Shown here piece by piece: positions 23,120 to 30,929 of a DNA stretch of 64,000 nt. The position numbers and the translations under genes are program-made. The stretch comes from Candidatus Aminicenantota bacterium. Its GTDB lineage: Bacteria; Acidobacteriota; Aminicenantia; Aminicenantales; UBA4085. Every line of letters starts with the position of its first letter. The first letter of the stretch is position 1. Under the pieces are notes generated by a model, which saw only the letters and a list, made by a program, of their open reading frames with translations, was not told the DNA's origin and did not search any database. The stretch is from positions 132,514-196,513 of the forward strand of contig PLMN01000007.1 in assembly GCA_003141555.1 (NCBI GenBank), given 5' to 3'.

Positions 23120-24595
23120 TCAGCAAATCTTCCCCAACTCCTCAACAATCCTTATCATCCCCATCGTGTCCAGCCCGCAATACTCTTCGAGCTGTTTGCG
23201 GACGCGCGCCCGCTCCGCCTCATCGGCGCCGCCGAACGTCACCCGGAGGTATTCGCGGCTAGCCGTCTCGCCGTCGGCGATGTCGAGCGATTCGTAGCCC
23301 GCACCGGTCAGGGCGGGCAGGACCGCCTTGAGCGAGGCACTCCCGGATTGAGACGGATGGTAGAAAGCGAACGCGCGGAACGGCGCCAGCAAGTCGACGA
23401 ACCGAAGCTGCGCGCCATTCCACCAATCCGCATACTCGGGGCAGGCTTCCACGGCCAGGTTCAAGACGCTCTTTTCGAAGGCCGCGTTATAGGCGACGAT
23501 GGAGCCCGAATCGCCGAGCTTGTCCTTCAAGAGCCTTAGGACCTCGGGATTCGGATTGCTCCGGCCCTCGGACAGATACGAGTGATGGACGGGGGCCGCC
23601 CCCAGCGCCGGAACGATATCGAGCGAGAACTGGAATGGGACTTTCTGATAGGGCCGGACGTCGTCGAAGAGGGGGATCGCCGTCTGGAACGTCTCGAAAT
23701 CGAGGAAATGAAGAGGATAGGCCAGTGTATCGAGAAACGCCCGGATCGCTTCCGGATCGACATGCCGGCTTCCCGACCGCACAGCCTCGAGCTGGATCTT
23801 CTGCTTCTCGTTCAAGCCGGCCGTATCCGGGACGTCCGCGATTTTCAAGATCCCCTGATGGATCATTTCGAACGCTTTTTCCTTGTTGAATCCGGCGAGC
23901 GTCAGAGGATTATCCTCGGGAAGAAAGCCCCAGCACATCTCCTGGAGGATGCACGCGTAAGGGTCGTCGCACTGCGGGCCGATGGCGATGTCCGGCATCT
24001 GTTTTTGGCGGATCACGCTCACGAGCTCGGCCAAGTTCGGCTCGACGCAGGGCGAAAGGGAGGCGACTCGTTCGGTCACGTCTTCCTGTTCGAAGAGCTT
24101 GCCGACCTCGATCTTCCCCCGGCGGACATATTCCGTATTGATATGCATCAGGATGCACTTCCGGATACGGAGGCCCGAACCCTCCACGACGTATTTCTGC
24201 AGGGCCAGGTCTTCGATATGAACGGGTTTGACATCGGTCGAGCTCTTGACCTCGATGAGGTCCCACGTCCCATCCTCGACGGGGTTGATGATGTCGGTCC
24301 GGGCAAAGCCGTTTCCGAAGCTGAAGGCCGCCTCGTACAAAGGGACTCTCTTCTTCAGGGCTTCGCCCGTTCGATCGAGCAGGAGGGCGTATTTCCAGGG
24401 ATCACCCTCGATCTCGATCCCGTCGGGAAAGAGACTCTTCGCCAGGTGCCCGACCTCGTGGCCCTGGTCGAAGATCGCCTGGGTCGAGGCGTCATAGGGC
24501 GGGACTTTAGCCTTGTCGTTGTAAAGGACCCAAATGAGCTTATGGCACTGCAACCCGTTCAAATATTTGGATTTGGAGACCGATTGCAAACGCAT
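23120..24595 (-). CDS. DUF2779-type protein: Cas4/RecB-like nuclease domain plus DnaQ-like exonuclease domain
   Basis: 491 aa. The N-terminal half has a RecB/Cas4-like PD-(D/E)XK site (D101, then LIEVKSS with E115 and K117). It also has a cysteine set resembling a 4Fe-4S nuclease: C17 near the N-terminus and three cysteines spaced C-x5-C-x5-C in CDDPYACILQEMC. The C-terminal half looks like an RNase H-fold 3'-5' exonuclease: HFLDFETF, SIVAYNAAFEKSVL and YCGLDTMGMIRIV supply the acidic residues. The architecture matches DUF2779, found sporadically, often in accessory regions. Probably DNA repair or defence; no substrate is known. Base composition is closer to the host than the AT-rich genes beside it. 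Confidence 0.78.
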   Translation of the reverse strand: MRLQSVSKSKYLNGLQCHKLIWVLYNDKAKVPPYDASTQAIFDQGHEVGHLAKSLFPDGIEIEGDPWKYALLLDRTGEALKKRVPLYEAAFSFGNGFARTDIINPVEDGTWDLIEVKSSTDVKPVHIEDLALQKYVVEGSGLRIRKCILMHINTEYVRRGKIEVGKLFEQEDVTERVASLSPCVEPNLAELVSVIRQKQMPDIAIGPQCDDPYACILQEMCWGFLPEDNPLTLAGFNKEKAFEMIHQGILKIADVPDTAGLNEKQKIQLEAVRSGSRHVDPEAIRAFLDTLAYPLHFLDFETFQTAIPLFDDVRPYQKVPFQFSLDIVPALGAAPVHHSYLSEGRSNPNPEVLRLLKDKLGDSGSIVAYNAAFEKSVLNLAVEACPEYADWWNGAQLRFVDLLAPFRAFAFYHPSQSGSASLKAVLPALTGAGYESLDIADGETASREYLRVTFGGADEAERARVRKQLEEYCGLDTMGMIRIVEELGKIC

Positions 24596-24868
24596 AGTTC
24601 GCTATTTATTGCCAAAATCATATACACATAGAATGTCGAACAGGTCCCTGGGTAGGCGAAGAAGAGCATTGAGCCTTAAAACTCTTTGCAACTTCGTATC
24701 CAATGCAACTTATTACGAATAAGCTAAGCGAACTTGGTTTCCACATTTACCCATTGTTCTATTTCTGTTATCAGATCCTTATCATAATAAAAATAATATT
24801 GAAATCCGCCTGAACACTGATTTCGCATCAGCCCTTTCACCGTAATTACAATATTGGAGGATATCCGC
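24596..24868. other. AT-rich gap between DUF2779 and the RRM protein
   Basis: The base composition switches here from GC-rich to AT-rich. No confident gene is visible apart from a doubtful 62-aa minus-strand ORF (24724-24912). This is the left boundary of the AT-rich segment. No att-like direct repeat or tRNA was recognised. Confidence 0.5.
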
Positions 24869-24912
24869 TCATTTAGGCTCAGCCGGACGTGCGACAATTT
24901 TTCGCCCTTCAA
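24724..24912 (-). CDS. Possible small 62-aa protein overlapping the end of the RRM gene
   Basis: From a TTG at 24912 the frame encodes 62 aa with a plausible composition (GGFQYYFYYDKDLITEIEQW). It overlaps the last 44 bases of the 889-aa gene in another frame. It could be a coupled small gene, a remnant of a longer C-terminus lost by frameshift, or chance in AT-rich DNA. No family was recognised and no ribosome site is clear. Confidence 0.25.
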   Translation of the reverse strand: MKGEKLSHVRLSLNERISSNIVITVKGLMRNQCSGGFQYYFYYDKDLITEIEQWVNVETKFA

Positions 24913-27538
24913 TATTAAGCTTATTGATTTTTCTTAGCTCCGTATCCATATCAACATCATTAGGAATCTTTATAAAAGCGTACCCTTTTGATCTTTTCCC
25001 TTCTAAAGGGAAAAAAATGGAAATTACTCGGATCTCGATCTTCTTTAACATTATTTCTAAATCTTCTTGCGCCATATTAAATGGCAAATTTCCTATATAT
25101 ATCTTCCCGCTTTCTTTAGCGCGAATCACCTTCTGTGAATAATAATCAATTTCGCCTTTTATTTTATCAAAACAATGTAAATCTTCAGAAGTTTCACTTT
25201 CTAGGTAATTCGACGGATCACACAGTTCTTCATTCTTCTTTTTTTCTAGATAATAATAAAAAGCGTTAGCATTTTCGTACGTTGTTCCCGTTGAATATTG
25301 AGAATATTTATTTTTCCCGATTCTTTCGGCGATTCCAGTTCGGACATCACTATCATCAATAAAGGTTTCTTCGGAGCATGCCGCTAAATAATCAATGTTT
25401 TCTAATATATCCAAATGTATCATACCTGATGAACTAATCGCGGCTAAATCATCCTCAGATATTTCATCGGTTTTCAAATGCTCAGCTACAATACATTTAT
25501 TCTTAAGCAAATAGATTAATTCACTTTTGGATCTCTCATATGAATGACCAAATGTGATCAGTTTCTGAAACATATCACCGACGCGATGAAAACTCATTAA
25601 TCCAGACGGCCCAATTGTTCTCACCCGATTATCGAGATATCGCAATATTGCGATCCGAATAAAGTGATCTGGTTTTGAATCCGCAGGATCGCATTGAAAT
25701 AGGTTTTTTAAAAAGGATATATTACCGTCATAAAACCTCCTATTCATTCGAAGAAGCACTCTTGTCACTATTGGAAGGGGGAGGACATAATCACCTTTTG
25801 CACCTCGAATTTTCAATATTTCAGCTTCATTAATATGCCCGCTACGACAAAATTCTAAAAACATCTCGATGGCCTTTCTAATATCTCGTCCTGCAAGGCC
25901 AGTTAATAATCGCCTAAGAAAACGATCGTATTCAAAAAGTGATTTCAATATCGATGCAAGATATACTCCTTGATCTGAAGCGGGATAAGTAACTCGAACT
26001 CCATTTTTTAAGAAATACTCCAATTCGCGACTTTCGCCTTTCTTTTCCATTTCCTTTAAAGCCAGAAAGAATCTTCCTCTTAAGACTTCAGTGAATTGAG
26101 GAGGTTCAATTCGGAAAATAAGATCTTTCTGGGCAGTATCAAGAGGAGGCTCATTTCTATGGTTTTCATATGTAACATCGCGAATCGGGAGGACAACGGC
26201 AGCATTTATTTCCGATTGAGTCCAATTTGCGAGCTGAAACATTAGTAATTGGTCATCTCTATTTCGTTTATCACAATTATCAAGTACAACAACCAATAAG
26301 CGGCCGCGATCAGAACATAAATATCGAGCGAGCGATTTAGCAGTTAATATTTCATCTTTTTGCATATAAAGTAATTCTTCCGCGAGTTTTGACTTATATT
26401 CTGATGTTCCTTCGCCTAACAATGATAAAGCCCCCTTTTTTAAATTTCGTATTTCGGGGGCATAAACACGAAATAATGTATTTATATCTTCAAAATCAAT
26501 TCCAGGATCAGACAATTTCAGTTCTTTTATAATCGATTTTATTAGCCATCCATTTGCCGAAGACATATCGATGGGAGCATTGTTCAAATCTATCCTTAAC
26601 CAGACTGTTTTAGACATTGATTCGGCAGAGAGTGCAACGTTGACCAAATAATCAATAAATGTCGATTTCCCAGAGCCGACACTCCCTACTAGCAATAGTA
26701 TCTGATGTTCCAAAGATCTGCCTGGCCTGATGACATCTAATAATTCAACGGGAACTGAAGTGTCTTCTATATTCCTAAGGGAACGAATTCCAGGAGTAAC
26801 AATTTGGCGAATAAATCGGTCGATCGGTTCGACATATCGCTGTCGTCTTTGCGATTTAACGTACGCGTTTTTTACTAAATATGCTCTATCAGCTAAAGTC
26901 GAAGGGCTAAAAATATGCCGAAAATCGAGCGCGACAGAAGATCCGAAGGTATTTGGTTCCATTTCTTCATTCCGGACAGCCGAACCCCCAACAAGAGAAA
27001 TCGCCTGAGCATATGGGCGCGTATGCACTTTTTTAAATATATCATTTGCATACTTAGATAAGGTGGCCCGACAAATTAGATTGTTTATTTCCGCATAAAT
27101 CGCATCGCCCACATTAATATCTTCAATCGGAACCGATTTCGTAAAATCATAAGAGTCCCATTTTGATAAAGTAAGCACCTTCCCATTCGATGAAAGCACC
27201 CATTTACATGGATTAACATCTGCCGAAAAAAGCTTATTTAACTGAGCCGCGTACATGCGAGCTTCATCGAGACCTTCTGTTAAATCATCGGTCTCTGGAG
27301 ATTTAGCTTCACCGACCAAAACAGGAAGTCCAGAAAGAATAATTAAATAATCAGGATAATAGAGGTGACGAGCCCCGCCCTTTCCTATTCCTAACCTTTT
27401 TATTGAGAATTTAGTTAGGATTTCTGAATTCGAGTATCCGAGCCCTAGTGGACAAGGCATTGAAAACAAGGGCATAAGTACCTTTTGTTCAACATCGCTC
27501 TCGTTATGAATGGAATCGACCTTAATAAATGTAGACAT
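24869..27538 (-). CDS. PD-(D/E)XK nuclease-like - STAND/KAP-like P-loop NTPase - RRM fusion (candidate defence protein)
   Basis: 889 aa in AT-rich DNA. Residues about 1-170 resemble an HsdR-N/PD-(D/E)XK domain: E17, D63 in YYPDYLIIL, and E77/K79 in VGEAKSP. A P-loop NTPase follows, with Walker A GSVGSGKS (285-292) and Walker B LLVVVLDNCD (ending D423), then the sensor-like VVLPIRDV, as in STAND/KAP ATPases. A long helical region (about 480-800) has winged-helix-like stretches. The C-terminus (about 811-889) is a canonical RNA recognition motif: RNP2 IYIGNL and RNP1 KGYAFIKI. A strong ribosome site (GGAGGGGG) precedes the ATG. Nuclease plus STAND-type switch resembles Avs-like antiphage proteins, but the RRM in sensor position is unusual. 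Function is inferred, not shown. Confidence 0.8.
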   Translation of the reverse strand: MSTFIKVDSIHNESDVEQKVLMPLFSMPCPLGLGYSNSEILTKFSIKRLGIGKGGARHLYYPDYLIILSGLPVLVGEAKSPETDDLTEGLDEARMYAAQLNKLFSADVNPCKWVLSSNGKVLTLSKWDSYDFTKSVPIEDINVGDAIYAEINNLICRATLSKYANDIFKKVHTRPYAQAISLVGGSAVRNEEMEPNTFGSSVALDFRHIFSPSTLADRAYLVKNAYVKSQRRQRYVEPIDRFIRQIVTPGIRSLRNIEDTSVPVELLDVIRPGRSLEHQILLLVGSVGSGKSTFIDYLVNVALSAESMSKTVWLRIDLNNAPIDMSSANGWLIKSIIKELKLSDPGIDFEDINTLFRVYAPEIRNLKKGALSLLGEGTSEYKSKLAEELLYMQKDEILTAKSLARYLCSDRGRLLVVVLDNCDKRNRDDQLLMFQLANWTQSEINAAVVLPIRDVTYENHRNEPPLDTAQKDLIFRIEPPQFTEVLRGRFFLALKEMEKKGESRELEYFLKNGVRVTYPASDQGVYLASILKSLFEYDRFLRRLLTGLAGRDIRKAIEMFLEFCRSGHINEAEILKIRGAKGDYVLPLPIVTRVLLRMNRRFYDGNISFLKNLFQCDPADSKPDHFIRIAILRYLDNRVRTIGPSGLMSFHRVGDMFQKLITFGHSYERSKSELIYLLKNKCIVAEHLKTDEISEDDLAAISSSGMIHLDILENIDYLAACSEETFIDDSDVRTGIAERIGKNKYSQYSTGTTYENANAFYYYLEKKKNEELCDPSNYLESETSEDLHCFDKIKGEIDYYSQKVIRAKESGKIYIGNLPFNMAQEDLEIMLKKIEIRVISIFFPLEGKRSKGYAFIKIPNDVDMDTELRKINKLNIEGRKIVARPAEPK

Positions 27539-27917
27539 TCCCCCCTCCGTTATTTTTGTTCAATTAAAAAAATTACTTTACGCGTAATTAGAAAGTGATT
27601 ATTGGGGCTTGGCCTATTCGCCATATGAGCATCCATCTCTAGCTCTCGTTAGCCATCAACCACAGGAAGGGATAGGCTTTATTACATTATTCCAAAGCCA
27701 TTATGAGACATCTTTGAAAAAAGCGCTAATATAATTAATCAGGAAATCTTTATCAACGGGAGCTCTACCCAAATTCGCGGACCGCGTCAACTGACGTTCG
27801 CAAAATGGGGGCCATCATAGCCCCCTTCAGTTCGTCGCTTATTTACGCTGCGACTGCCCAATGAGAATATTTCTGCAATGAAACGTCTATTATCATGATT
27901 CTGATATAATTGAGTCA
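27539..27917. other. Divergent intergenic region of the AT-rich segment
   Basis: No gene is seen in these 379 bases. They hold the ribosome site of the RRM protein, a palindrome TTACGCGTAA (27578-27587) nested in AATTAC...GTAATT, a small inverted repeat CGTCA-AC-TGACG (27787-27798), a GGGGGC...GCCCCC hairpin near 27816-27835, and the extended -10 promoter of the DUF488 gene. The TTACGCGTAA palindrome lies 40 bases from the RRM-gene start and could be an operator. Confidence 0.5.
27902..27910 (+). promoter_or_regulatory. Extended -10 promoter of DUF488 (leaderless geometry)
   Basis: TGATATAAT is a perfect extended -10 (TGn-TATAAT). Exactly 7 bases separate TATAAT from the ATG at 27918, predicting a leaderless transcript. 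No good -35 is seen, as expected for extended -10 promoters. Confidence 0.65.
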
Positions 27918-28361
27918 ATGAATTCCCAGGAGTTGTTTACGGTAGGCTACGAAGGTCGATCGATCGACGAATTTGTTGTTTATCTCAAGGCCCACGGAAT
28001 CCGTCGATTGATCGATATTAGAGAAATCCCGATTTCTCGAAAACGCGGATTCTCGAAATCTAGCCTTAAAACGCGTCTTGAAGCTGAGAGGATCGAATAT
28101 TTGCATATTCGTTCGCTCGGAAGCCCTTCGGCGATCAGAAATAAATTAAAAATCGATCATGATTTTGAAGAGTTTTTTAATTCTTACTCTGTCTATTTGT
28201 CGATGCAAACCGCAGTTCTTCAGGAAGTAATTCGATTGGCCCAGGATGGACTGAATTGTTTGCTCTGTTTTGAGCGGGAAGCCGAGAATTGCCATAGATC
28301 GGCCGTAGCGAAACGGATGATGGAAATCAGCAACAGCCCTTTTCATGTTCACCACATTTGA
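27918..28361 (+). CDS. DUF488 family protein
   Basis: 147 aa. It shows the family hallmarks: VGYEGRSIDEFV near the N-terminus, LIDIREIPISRKRGFSK in the middle, and LLCFEREAENCHRSAVA near the C-terminus, with the conserved C-x-E and C-H-R residues. The catalytic role of DUF488 is not established; members often sit in mobile or conflict-related gene sets. It is AT-rich like its neighbours, and its stop overlaps the start of the 265-aa gene (TTGA junction), so the two are translationally coupled. It is transcribed away from the RRM protein, sharing one intergenic region with it. Confidence 0.85.
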   Translation: MNSQELFTVGYEGRSIDEFVVYLKAHGIRRLIDIREIPISRKRGFSKSSLKTRLEAERIEYLHIRSLGSPSAIRNKLKIDHDFEEFFNSYSVYLSMQTAVLQEVIRLAQDGLNCLLCFEREAENCHRSAVAKRMMEISNSPFHVHHI

Positions 28362-29155
28362 AAACAATAGGATTCCACGAAAAAAGAATTTTAATCACGG
28401 TCAAAGCTTACCCGGTCGCGAGTATTTCGTACGGGGAAACGGTTTGTTGCGCTGGAATCGACATCGATGACCGGAGCTGGATCCGGCTTTACCCCGTCCC
28501 TTTCCGCGATTTGGAACCAGACAAACAATTTAACAAATATGACATCATCCAAGCGAAATGCGCGAAAGCTACCGATGACCACCGTCCTGAAAGCTGCAGA
28601 ATACAAGCAGCGTCGATAGAAATAATCGGTCATCTCGGAACGAAAGATAATTGGGCGGAACGCAAAAATTATGTTTTAGCCGCACCGATCAGTTCTTTTT
28701 GCGAAATTTTAGGGAATCAAAACGAATCGGCGCCTTCTTTTGGCTTGATAAAACCCAAAGATGTCAAGTTCGTAATCGAAAAACGGCGAGCTGCAAATTC
28801 AGAAAAAAGGAAAAAAGCATATTCCAAGCCGACCCTTTTTGATAAGCCCAAGGAGATGATTGAAGAAGTGCCATTTCAATTCTTCTATTCCTTCTATTGC
28901 TCGAATTTCCCCACTTGCCCAGGACATAGACTCTCGATCACAGACTGGGAAATAAACCAAGCCTATAGAAAATGGCGATATCAATACTCCGATCCAGCAA
29001 TACTATTGCGCAACATTGAAAAAAAATGGCTGGAGATCATCGATCAGCGAAAAAAAGATGCATTCTTTTTTGTCGGCAATCTTCATCGTTTCCGGGATGA
29101 ATTCGTCATCCTAGGAATTTTTTCTCCTCCTATTTCAACTCCACAGTCTTCGTGA
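28358..29155 (+). CDS. Unknown protein coupled to DUF488
   Basis: 265 aa, TTG start overlapping the DUF488 stop. No family is recognised with certainty. The N-terminal part (KRILITVKAYPVASISYGE ... SWIRLYPVPFRDL ... NKYDIIQAKC) looks like a compact beta-barrel domain. The C-terminal part has a conserved-looking C-x4-C-x-G-H motif in FYCSNFPTCPGHRLSITDWE, followed by YRKWRYQ, and ends with a possible catalytic or binding segment FVGNLHRFRDEFVILG. No signal peptide or membrane helix. The last 26 bases overlap the 3' end of the convergent M14 peptidase gene, so the segment's right junction abuts host coding DNA. Probably works with DUF488; nucleic-acid binding is only a guess. Confidence 0.7.
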   Translation: MKTIGFHEKRILITVKAYPVASISYGETVCCAGIDIDDRSWIRLYPVPFRDLEPDKQFNKYDIIQAKCAKATDDHRPESCRIQAASIEIIGHLGTKDNWAERKNYVLAAPISSFCEILGNQNESAPSFGLIKPKDVKFVIEKRRAANSEKRKKAYSKPTLFDKPKEMIEEVPFQFFYSFYCSNFPTCPGHRLSITDWEINQAYRKWRYQYSDPAILLRNIEKKWLEIIDQRKKDAFFFVGNLHRFRDEFVILGIFSPPISTPQSS

Positions 29156-30929
29156 TCTTCCCCGCGTGCCGCGAGTCGTAAGAAACCGTGATCGTCCCCT
29201 TGCCCTCGACTAAGAACTGGTGCTCGACCTTGCCGAAGCCCGGCACGGACGTGAATTGAAGCTCGGGCCGGTATTTCTTATAAGCGATGAGATCGAGATA
29301 CGGATCGTTGATCAGGCCGCCCTCTAAAACCTTGGCGCTATCGCCCGTCACCTTGAGCATGTCCTTGGGATAGATGTTGTTCTTCTGGGCCAAGGCGCTC
29401 ATGGAAGGAATGGCCTTGGAGTTCGCCAGCCGGGTCCGCACTCTATATAAATTCCTGCCCAGCGCCTTGACGTCCGTCACTTCGAGGCTGACCGCGGGGG
29501 CGTTCTTGGCCGTGAAGATCACGCTCATGGCGTTCCGGTGAACCAGATCCTTGAGCATGAACGGCGCGGACAGGCGGGAGCTCATCTTGACCCAGCCGCC
29601 GATCTCGATATCGCCGTAAGCCGGATGCTTGAAAGGCTTCCAGGGCTTGTAGAGCTCGCCCATGGCCAGATAGTCGTTGAACTTGAGGCGATCGCGCTCG
29701 GAGATCCCTCCCGACAGCATGGCCCCCAGGCCGGGTTCGCCGGCCGGCGCTTCGGGCTTTTCCGACGCGCCGCGGAACGCTTCGGACTCGGCCGGGAACA
29801 CCTCGGCCACGAAGCCGTAAGCGCCCTGGGTCTGGGTCAGCCACTCCAGGGAATCGCCGTAGGTCGTGTAGAGGTCCTTCCAGGTGATGAGGTAGCGATA
29901 GCCCGGGACGATCCGTTCGGCCTGCTTGCCGAGATAGTCATAGACGGCGACGTCCGGGGCGGGGAACTCGCCGACCGCTTTGCGGCTGGGCCCGCGCAGG
30001 ATCATCCCGCCGTTATTGTGGAAGGTCCAGCCGATGACGATATTGGTCTTCGTGGCCGTCCATTCGGCCAGGGCCTTGAGTCCGATCCCGCGGAAGGGAT
30101 ATTCGCCCGATCCGGACTGGACATAGGGGGGGGCCCAATCGAACCCCCAGTTGCGGTTGGGATCGACATAGCCCGGGCCGTCCTCGTTGATCTTGCCGTC
30201 GCCGTCGTTGTCGATGCCCTCCTCGCCGAGGATCGTCCATTCGCCCTTCTCCCCCGGCTTGACCGGGACCATCGGGCGCGGGTCCTCGGGATCGGTCTTG
30301 TAGGCCCCGAAGGGATCGCGCTTCCTCATCATGCAGATGTTGCCGTCGCCGTCGAGATCGTCGGGACCGTCCTCGTCGATCAAGCCGTCATGGTCGTCGT
30401 CGGTCGGGATGCGAAGGCCGCGGTTGGAGCTGGGGTCGTTGGGATCCGCGAAGAAATGATAGCGGCCGTCCACGTTGACCACGGGCACAACGTAGAACGA
30501 GGTCCGGTCGACGAGGGCGGTGACCTCCTCGTTCTTGCCGTAATTCCCGAGCAGGTAATCGAGCAGATAGAGCGCGATCTCGCCGCCCTGGATCTCGTTG
30601 CCGTGGATGTTGCCGTCCACGTAGACGCCGGGCTTGCCGAGCGCGGGGCCGGTCTTGGGGTTGTTGACGGTCATGGCCATGAGGGGCCGGCCCTCGTCGC
30701 TCTTGCCGACTTCTTCGAGGGTCGTCAGGGCCGGGTAGGTTTTGTTCAGTAGGCGGAGCGCTTCGTAAACTTGGTCGAGCGGATAATAATGGTCGAACCG
30801 CAGAGGCAGGGGCGGAAGCGGGGTTTGAGGCGAAACCGCGCCGGCGCCGGCGTTCATATCGGCTTTTTGCGCGGGCAGGGAAAACGCCAGGAGGGCGAGG
30901 AGGAGGACGAGGCCGATGAGCTTCTTCAT
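29130..30929 (-). CDS. Secreted M14 zinc carboxypeptidase with Ca-binding Asp-rich insert
   Basis: 599 aa with signal peptide MKKLIGLVLLLALLAFSLPAQ. The M14 zinc site is H109-x2-E112 in GNIHGNEIQGGE, with the third ligand probably His in WTFHNNGG. VVPVVNVDGR and DPNRNWGFDW are typical substrate-site segments. Between them are Asp-rich loops (DDDHDGLIDEDGPDDLDGDG and EGIDNDGDGKINEDG) like thrombospondin-3/dockerin Ca sites. It should be exported and remove C-terminal residues from peptides or cross-links. A downstream beta-sandwich (about 460-599) resembles C-terminal accessory domains. It overlaps the stop of the degenerate paralogue by 4 bases, so the two are cotranscribed. Confidence 0.9.
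   Translation of the reverse strand: MKKLIGLVLLLALLAFSLPAQKADMNAGAGAVSPQTPLPPLPLRFDHYYPLDQVYEALRLLNKTYPALTTLEEVGKSDEGRPLMAMTVNNPKTGPALGKPGVYVDGNIHGNEIQGGEIALYLLDYLLGNYGKNEEVTALVDRTSFYVVPVVNVDGRYHFFADPNDPSSNRGLRIPTDDDHDGLIDEDGPDDLDGDGNICMMRKRDPFGAYKTDPEDPRPMVPVKPGEKGEWTILGEEGIDNDGDGKINEDGPGYVDPNRNWGFDWAPPYVQSGSGEYPFRGIGLKALAEWTATKTNIVIGWTFHNNGGMILRGPSRKAVGEFPAPDVAVYDYLGKQAERIVPGYRYLITWKDLYTTYGDSLEWLTQTQGAYGFVAEVFPAESEAFRGASEKPEAPAGEPGLGAMLSGGISERDRLKFNDYLAMGELYKPWKPFKHPAYGDIEIGGWVKMSSRLSAPFMLKDLVHRNAMSVIFTAKNAPAVSLEVTDVKALGRNLYRVRTRLANSKAIPSMSALAQKNNIYPKDMLKVTGDSAKVLEGGLINDPYLDLIAYKKYRPELQFTSVPGFGKVEHQFLVEGKGTITVSYDSRHAGKITKTVELK

Follow-up and report, generated by a model that had tools for sequence, protein, structure and literature searches.

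The gene and its island

A single intact open reading frame of 889 codons, encoding a protein with nuclease, NTPase, and RNA recognition motif (RRM) regions, was identified in the window, which here means the whole 64-kb stretch of DNA that was analyzed. The positions of its domains and of the surrounding AT-rich island are listed in Table 1. The GC content of the gene is 37.7%, and that of the neighboring DUF488 and dual-OB (DuOB) genes is 43%, against 60 to 63% for the genes flanking the island. At the island borders, neither a flanking direct repeat nor a tRNA was found in the 64-kb window. In the one congener compared, contigs end beside both of the genes that flank the island here. A genome sample search found the core of the protein in 1 of 142 genomes of the class, which argues for horizontal acquisition of the gene.

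TABLE 1 Features of the nuclease-NTPase-RRM gene and its island, in positions of the window
Feature	Position	Strand	Basis
889-aa ORF: HsdR-type nuclease, ORC/STAND-type AAA+ NTPase, winged helix, helical linker, RRM	24869..27538 (including stop)	-	Single frame; relatives 31 to 49% identical over core
Predicted PD-(D/E)XK nuclease domain, aa 8-172; catalytic D63/E77/K79, helix-1 E17	27023..27517	-	Alignment, HSDR_N, fold model
Predicted AAA+ NTPase and lid, aa 197-610; Walker B 416-423, invariant R453	25709..26950	-	Alignment, fold model
Winged-helix-like region, aa 627-701	25436..25660	-	Model secondary structure; ORC/Cdc6 and CED-4 matches reach over region
Predicted helical linker, aa 703-809; no long repeat array predicted	25112..25432	-	Model
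Predicted RRM, aa 811-885; RNP2 813-818, RNP1 851-858; S1 position of most relatives	24884..25108	-	Profile, motifs
AT-rich island: nuclease-NTPase-RRM gene and divergent DUF488-DuOB pair	about 24600..29200		GC

Two other features were observed at the island. The gene next to it (23120 to 24595, minus strand) encodes a DUF2779 protein, which matches Cas4-like nucleases weakly, and the congener has a close homolog of this gene. The DUF488 gene overlaps the DuOB gene (27918 to 29155, plus strand), and the pair strongly matches the PADLOC candidate system PDC-M19A/B. The pair was considered as a partner of the RRM protein and rejected, as homologs were present in none of the other loci (163 loci, 1.85 Mb). 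Because it is missing from all other loci examined, we regard it as a separate cassette.

An HsdR-type nuclease and an ORC/STAND-type NTPase

The N-terminal region was compared with known nucleases by profile and by structure. The HSDR_N profile matched all 62 aligned relatives (best E value, 1.3e-15), and its match to the RRM member itself (E = 7e-5) was under the Pfam cut-off. A profile of the N-termini retrieved EcoR124I HsdR, with D63, E77, and K79 aligned to D151, E165, and K167, and E17 was invariant in the 62 aligned N-termini. A separate structure model of residues 1 to 195 (mean pLDDT, 90) matched HsdR 3h1t with a Z score of 11.6 (133 residues, 4.3 Å), and other matches were DrdV (10.3), BpuSI (9.3), and EcoR124I HsdR (8.1). 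Judged by its modeled fold and its aligned catalytic D, E, and K, the N-terminus is an HsdR-type PD-(D/E)XK nuclease domain. The fold and these residues are shared with HsdR of type I restriction systems, but the RRM protein has an AAA+ NTPase rather than the SF2 helicase motor, and it is encoded by a single gene with no HsdM or HsdS gene found around it in the window. The RefSeq name of the E. coli relative, "type I restriction enzyme HsdR N-terminal domain-containing protein," describes only one domain.

The central region carries Walker A (GSVGSGKS, residues 285 to 292) and Walker B (VVVLDNCD). The full-length structure model (mean pLDDT, 87; pTM, 0.83) was closest to archaeal and eukaryotic ORC/Cdc6 (Z scores of about 13), followed by TnsC (11.2), CED-4 (10.9), the plant NLR ZAR1 resistosome (10.7), and the RADAR ATPase RdrA (10.6). 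A BFVD fold search returned generic AAA matches only. Beyond the NTPase, the model contains a winged-helix-like region, a helical stretch of about 100 residues, and a small domain, and no long repeats were predicted. The middle of the protein, as modeled, is an ORC/Cdc6-STAND-type AAA+ NTPase with a winged helix. The curated STAND profiles (nSTAND5, nSTAND3, and AAA_16) matched only below threshold, so the NTPase is assigned here to the combined ORC/STAND group and to neither of its branches.

S1, RRM, and cold-shock domains at one C-terminal position

The RRM_1 profile (PF00076) matched the whole protein with an E value of 2.3e-8 (34.2 bits, the curated cut-off being 20.7) and the C-terminal 111 residues alone with an E value of 9.8e-10. 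Both RNP2 (IYIGNL) and RNP1 (KGYAFIKI) are present, and the aromatic residues in them that are typical of RNA contact (Y814, Y853, and F855) are kept. By profile and motif, the C-terminus is a canonical RRM. Its confidence in the full-length model was low because the alignment consisted mostly of proteins with S1 at this position.

These results confirm what the sequence-only reading had observed and support its interpretation in part. It had described a PD-(D/E)XK-like domain with E17, D63, E77, and K79, a STAND-like P-loop NTPase, and a C-terminal RRM with both RNP motifs. The residue and motif positions that it gave were right for all three, none of the motifs is a chance occurrence, and the structural and profile matches above agree with it. 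The order that it proposed, effector, NTPase, and sensor, was also recovered as nuclease, NTPase, and C-terminal nucleic-acid-binding domain. Its placing of an RRM at the C-terminal position was borne out for this protein and not for the family, in which S1 is the usual C-terminal domain (40 of 58 relatives) and the RRM is the exception (3 of 58). Two of the relatives, one from Acidobacteriota (L028) and one from Syntrophaceae (L031), carry two RRMs each. In addition, two distant sisters on Rhodobacterales plasmids (L141:3335-6208 and L142:3821-6742) combine an HSDR_N-type region and an AAA region with two C-terminal cold-shock domains each.

A tree of the core placed the three RRM members and the S1-type relative L029 in a group of four with a support of 98, within which the RRM trio was weakly supported (66). 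The fewest changes on this tree were one for the RRM and two for absence of the domain, so that the RRM is most simply explained as one replacement of S1. S1, cold-shock, and RRM folds can bind ssDNA as well as ssRNA. That three different folds recur at this position, all of them able to bind RNA or other single-stranded nucleic acid, is the main argument that the position serves to bind RNA or ssDNA.

No added C-terminal domain was present in 5 of 66 aligned relatives (L041, L043, L049, L079, and L082), which suggests that sensing may be done partly elsewhere. Two large genes of about 1,190 and 940 codons are conserved as the flanking genes of three of these tail-less relatives, all from Verrucomicrobiota (L041, L043, and L049). 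These are possibly a multigene version with the sensor on another protein.

Distribution of the family

Relatives were sought by a search of the phylum and in about 85,000 species genomes and IMG/VR. About 80 full-length relatives of 880 to 990 residues (typically 880 to 895) were found, with 31 to 49% identity over residues 9 to 790. Their hosts include Acidobacteriota, Planctomycetota, Pseudomonadota, Bacteroidota, Verrucomicrobiota, Bacillota, Melainabacteria, and others, and relatives also occur on plasmids and prophages. D63, E77, K79, G285, G288, G290, K291, D420, N421, D423, and R453 were invariant in the 66 aligned relatives. Further RRM-type members were found neither in an additional viral scan nor in sampled genomes of three phyla. 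More distant plasmid relatives, at 20 to 25% identity, were observed in Klebsiella, Enterobacter, Serratia, and Kosakonia, where they are annotated as hypothetical or as P-loop NTPase fold proteins.

The RRM protein matched PHROG 14719 with an E value of 3.2e-123 over residues 9 to 773, that is, over the nuclease-NTPase core and stopping before the RRM, and a P2-borne S1 relative matched it with an E value of 2e-159. By these profile matches, the nuclease-NTPase family is PHROG 14719, a phage protein family without an assigned function. Neither RRM-type nor S1-type relatives were found among INPHARED phages. The family has no PADLOC model, and none matched the RRM protein at an E value of <1e-3. 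No published description of the family was found in the main text of the papers searched.

Location of relatives at an anti-phage hotspot

Next, the genomic neighborhoods of the relatives were examined. The nuclease-NTPase gene stands alone, with no conserved partner gene among the loci. In 11 P2-like viral contigs, it adjoins a gpA-type replication nickase gene, a portal gene, or both. An S1-type relative, of which WP_001678413.1 from a P2-like prophage is an example, was present in 109 of 5,426 complete E. coli genomes, and in the three E. coli regions inspected it lies between the replication endonuclease gene gpA and the portal gene gpQ. Between its replication endonuclease and portal genes, P2 has a hotspot occupied by old, tin, and numerous anti-phage systems (Rousset et al. 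2022, PMC9122126). The defense setting that the sequence-only reading had anticipated for homologs was therefore found at the P2 old/tin hotspot, in both the viral contigs and the three E. coli regions. This evidence comes from S1-type relatives; the other two RRM members are on metagenome-assembled contigs without a clear hotspot.

Chromosomal relatives have neighbors that include Hma, DISARM-type, Gabija helicase, type I RM, and retron/DRT genes, as well as integrases. The enrichment of defense genes among these neighbors is only suggestive, because the window control was dominated by one kinase and was thus an unfair background. Several single loci showed further features. The gene is split into two ORFs in E. 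coli FCI55, and a KAP-family NTPase gene (L138:10751-12595) was observed in the same P2 hotspot in the E. coli strains inspected. In addition, the first 1.2 kb of L004/L023 (the same as L037) contains a CRISPR-like repeat array immediately upstream of an S1-type relative from Acidobacteria, and an integrase-like gene is found downstream.

Proposed function and alternative explanations

Relatives lie in an anti-phage hotspot and carry three unrelated kinds of RNA-binding tail at one position, so the probable role of the protein is to sense phage through RNA or another single-stranded nucleic acid. From location and architecture, we strongly infer an anti-phage defense role for the family, and we infer defense activity for the RRM member itself. 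Our main reading, with a probability of about 0.5, is that the gene was acquired horizontally and encodes, by itself, an anti-phage nuclease switch in which the C-terminal domain is the sensor of RNA or ssDNA. The N-terminal HsdR-type nuclease would be held inactive at rest, and the C-terminal domain, an RRM here and S1 in most relatives, would recognize RNA or ssDNA made or exposed in phage infection. Ligand binding would lead to nucleotide exchange in the NTPase and probably to oligomerization. The nuclease domains would thereby be brought together to cut DNA, the presumed substrate, either of the phage or of the whole cell in an abortive response. That RNA triggers the nuclease is at most plausible. 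A wider proposal is more tentative: the proteins may form an undescribed, widespread family of single-gene NLR-like receptors that detect phage RNA through interchangeable S1, RRM, or cold-shock domains and respond with a DNA nuclease.

The main rival explanation is targeting rather than triggering by the C-terminal domain. While phage DNA replicates, this domain would hold the protein on its ssDNA, R-loops, or nascent transcripts, and a phage protein or DNA end at the NTPase or winged helix would be the trigger. The ability of all three folds to bind ssDNA is consistent with targeting, as are the DNA-cutting HsdR type of the nuclease, the closeness of the NTPase to DNA-bound ORC/Cdc6 and TnsC, and the five relatives without a C-terminal domain. 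However, the C-terminus usually senses in related effector-NTPase-sensor systems, and the folds recruited repeatedly at this position are those best known for RNA. We consider targeting a serious but somewhat unlikely explanation.

A less probable explanation is that phage nucleic acid is not what the RRM or S1 domain senses; its target would instead be a phage protein or a host state (the ribosome, stalled translation, tmRNA, or RNA polymerase). S1 and RRM domains are also found on ribosomes and as protein-binding modules, and the phmmer matches of the RRM protein include chloroplast ribosomal RRM proteins. Contacts with the translation apparatus have, moreover, been predicted for domains of the CoCoNuT defense systems (PMC11090510). 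The RNP1 and RNP2 aromatics typical of RNA contact are retained in the RRM protein, which argues against this explanation. A non-defense function of a mobile element, in transposition or replication control by a TnsA/TnsC-like pairing of nuclease and AAA+ protein, would fit the TnsC match (Z score, 11.2) and the integrases near some loci but is very improbable given that the gene stands alone, that neither a transposase partner nor element ends were found, that it recurs at the P2 anti-phage hotspot, and that its distribution is patchy.

If the C-terminal domain is the sensor, as in our main reading, bacterial STAND-type receptors would include ones that read RNA or ssDNA instead of phage proteins, and bacteria would have a counterpart of the RNA sensing known from animal immunity. 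Reading of phage RNA would contrast with the characterized Avs receptors, which recognize phage proteins. The natural exchange of S1, RRM, and cold-shock domains on one conserved nuclease-NTPase chassis makes the trigger ligand directly testable by mutation and domain exchange, and the S1-type version in complete E. coli genomes makes laboratory tests easy.

Comparison with known defense systems

The sequence-only reading had likened the protein to Avs/STAND defense proteins. The likeness holds for the arrangement, since Avs (AVAST) and other STAND anti-phage receptors also have an N-terminal effector (a nuclease in several), a central STAND-type NTPase, and a C-terminal recognition part. It does not extend to the sequence: Avs profile models gave no match to the RRM protein at E values up to 1 and none to nine relatives at up to 0.1. 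In Avs proteins, C-terminal repeats bind phage terminase or portal, whereas the RRM protein has no such long array and ends in a compact RNA-binding fold that follows a winged helix.

CoCoNuT type IV restriction systems likewise bring together an NTPase, a nuclease, and RNA-related OB/CSD domains in defense (PMC11090510). In contrast, their NTPase is a McrB-type GTPase of an unrelated branch, and they are multigene operons with coiled coils (PMC11090510). The nearest published idea is that of the BREX-related DUF499 ATPases, which share the ORC/Cdc6-STAND AAA+ ATPase, winged helices, and a C-terminal RRM fold, the last proposed to bind invader nucleic acid (PMC12839542). The DUF499 systems differ in being multigene, with a methyltransferase and a helicase, in having no fused HsdR-type nuclease (HEPN in some), and in their hypervariable RRM fold (PMC12839542), whereas the nuclease-NTPase-RRM protein is encoded by one gene and carries a canonical RNP1/RNP2 RRM in place of S1.
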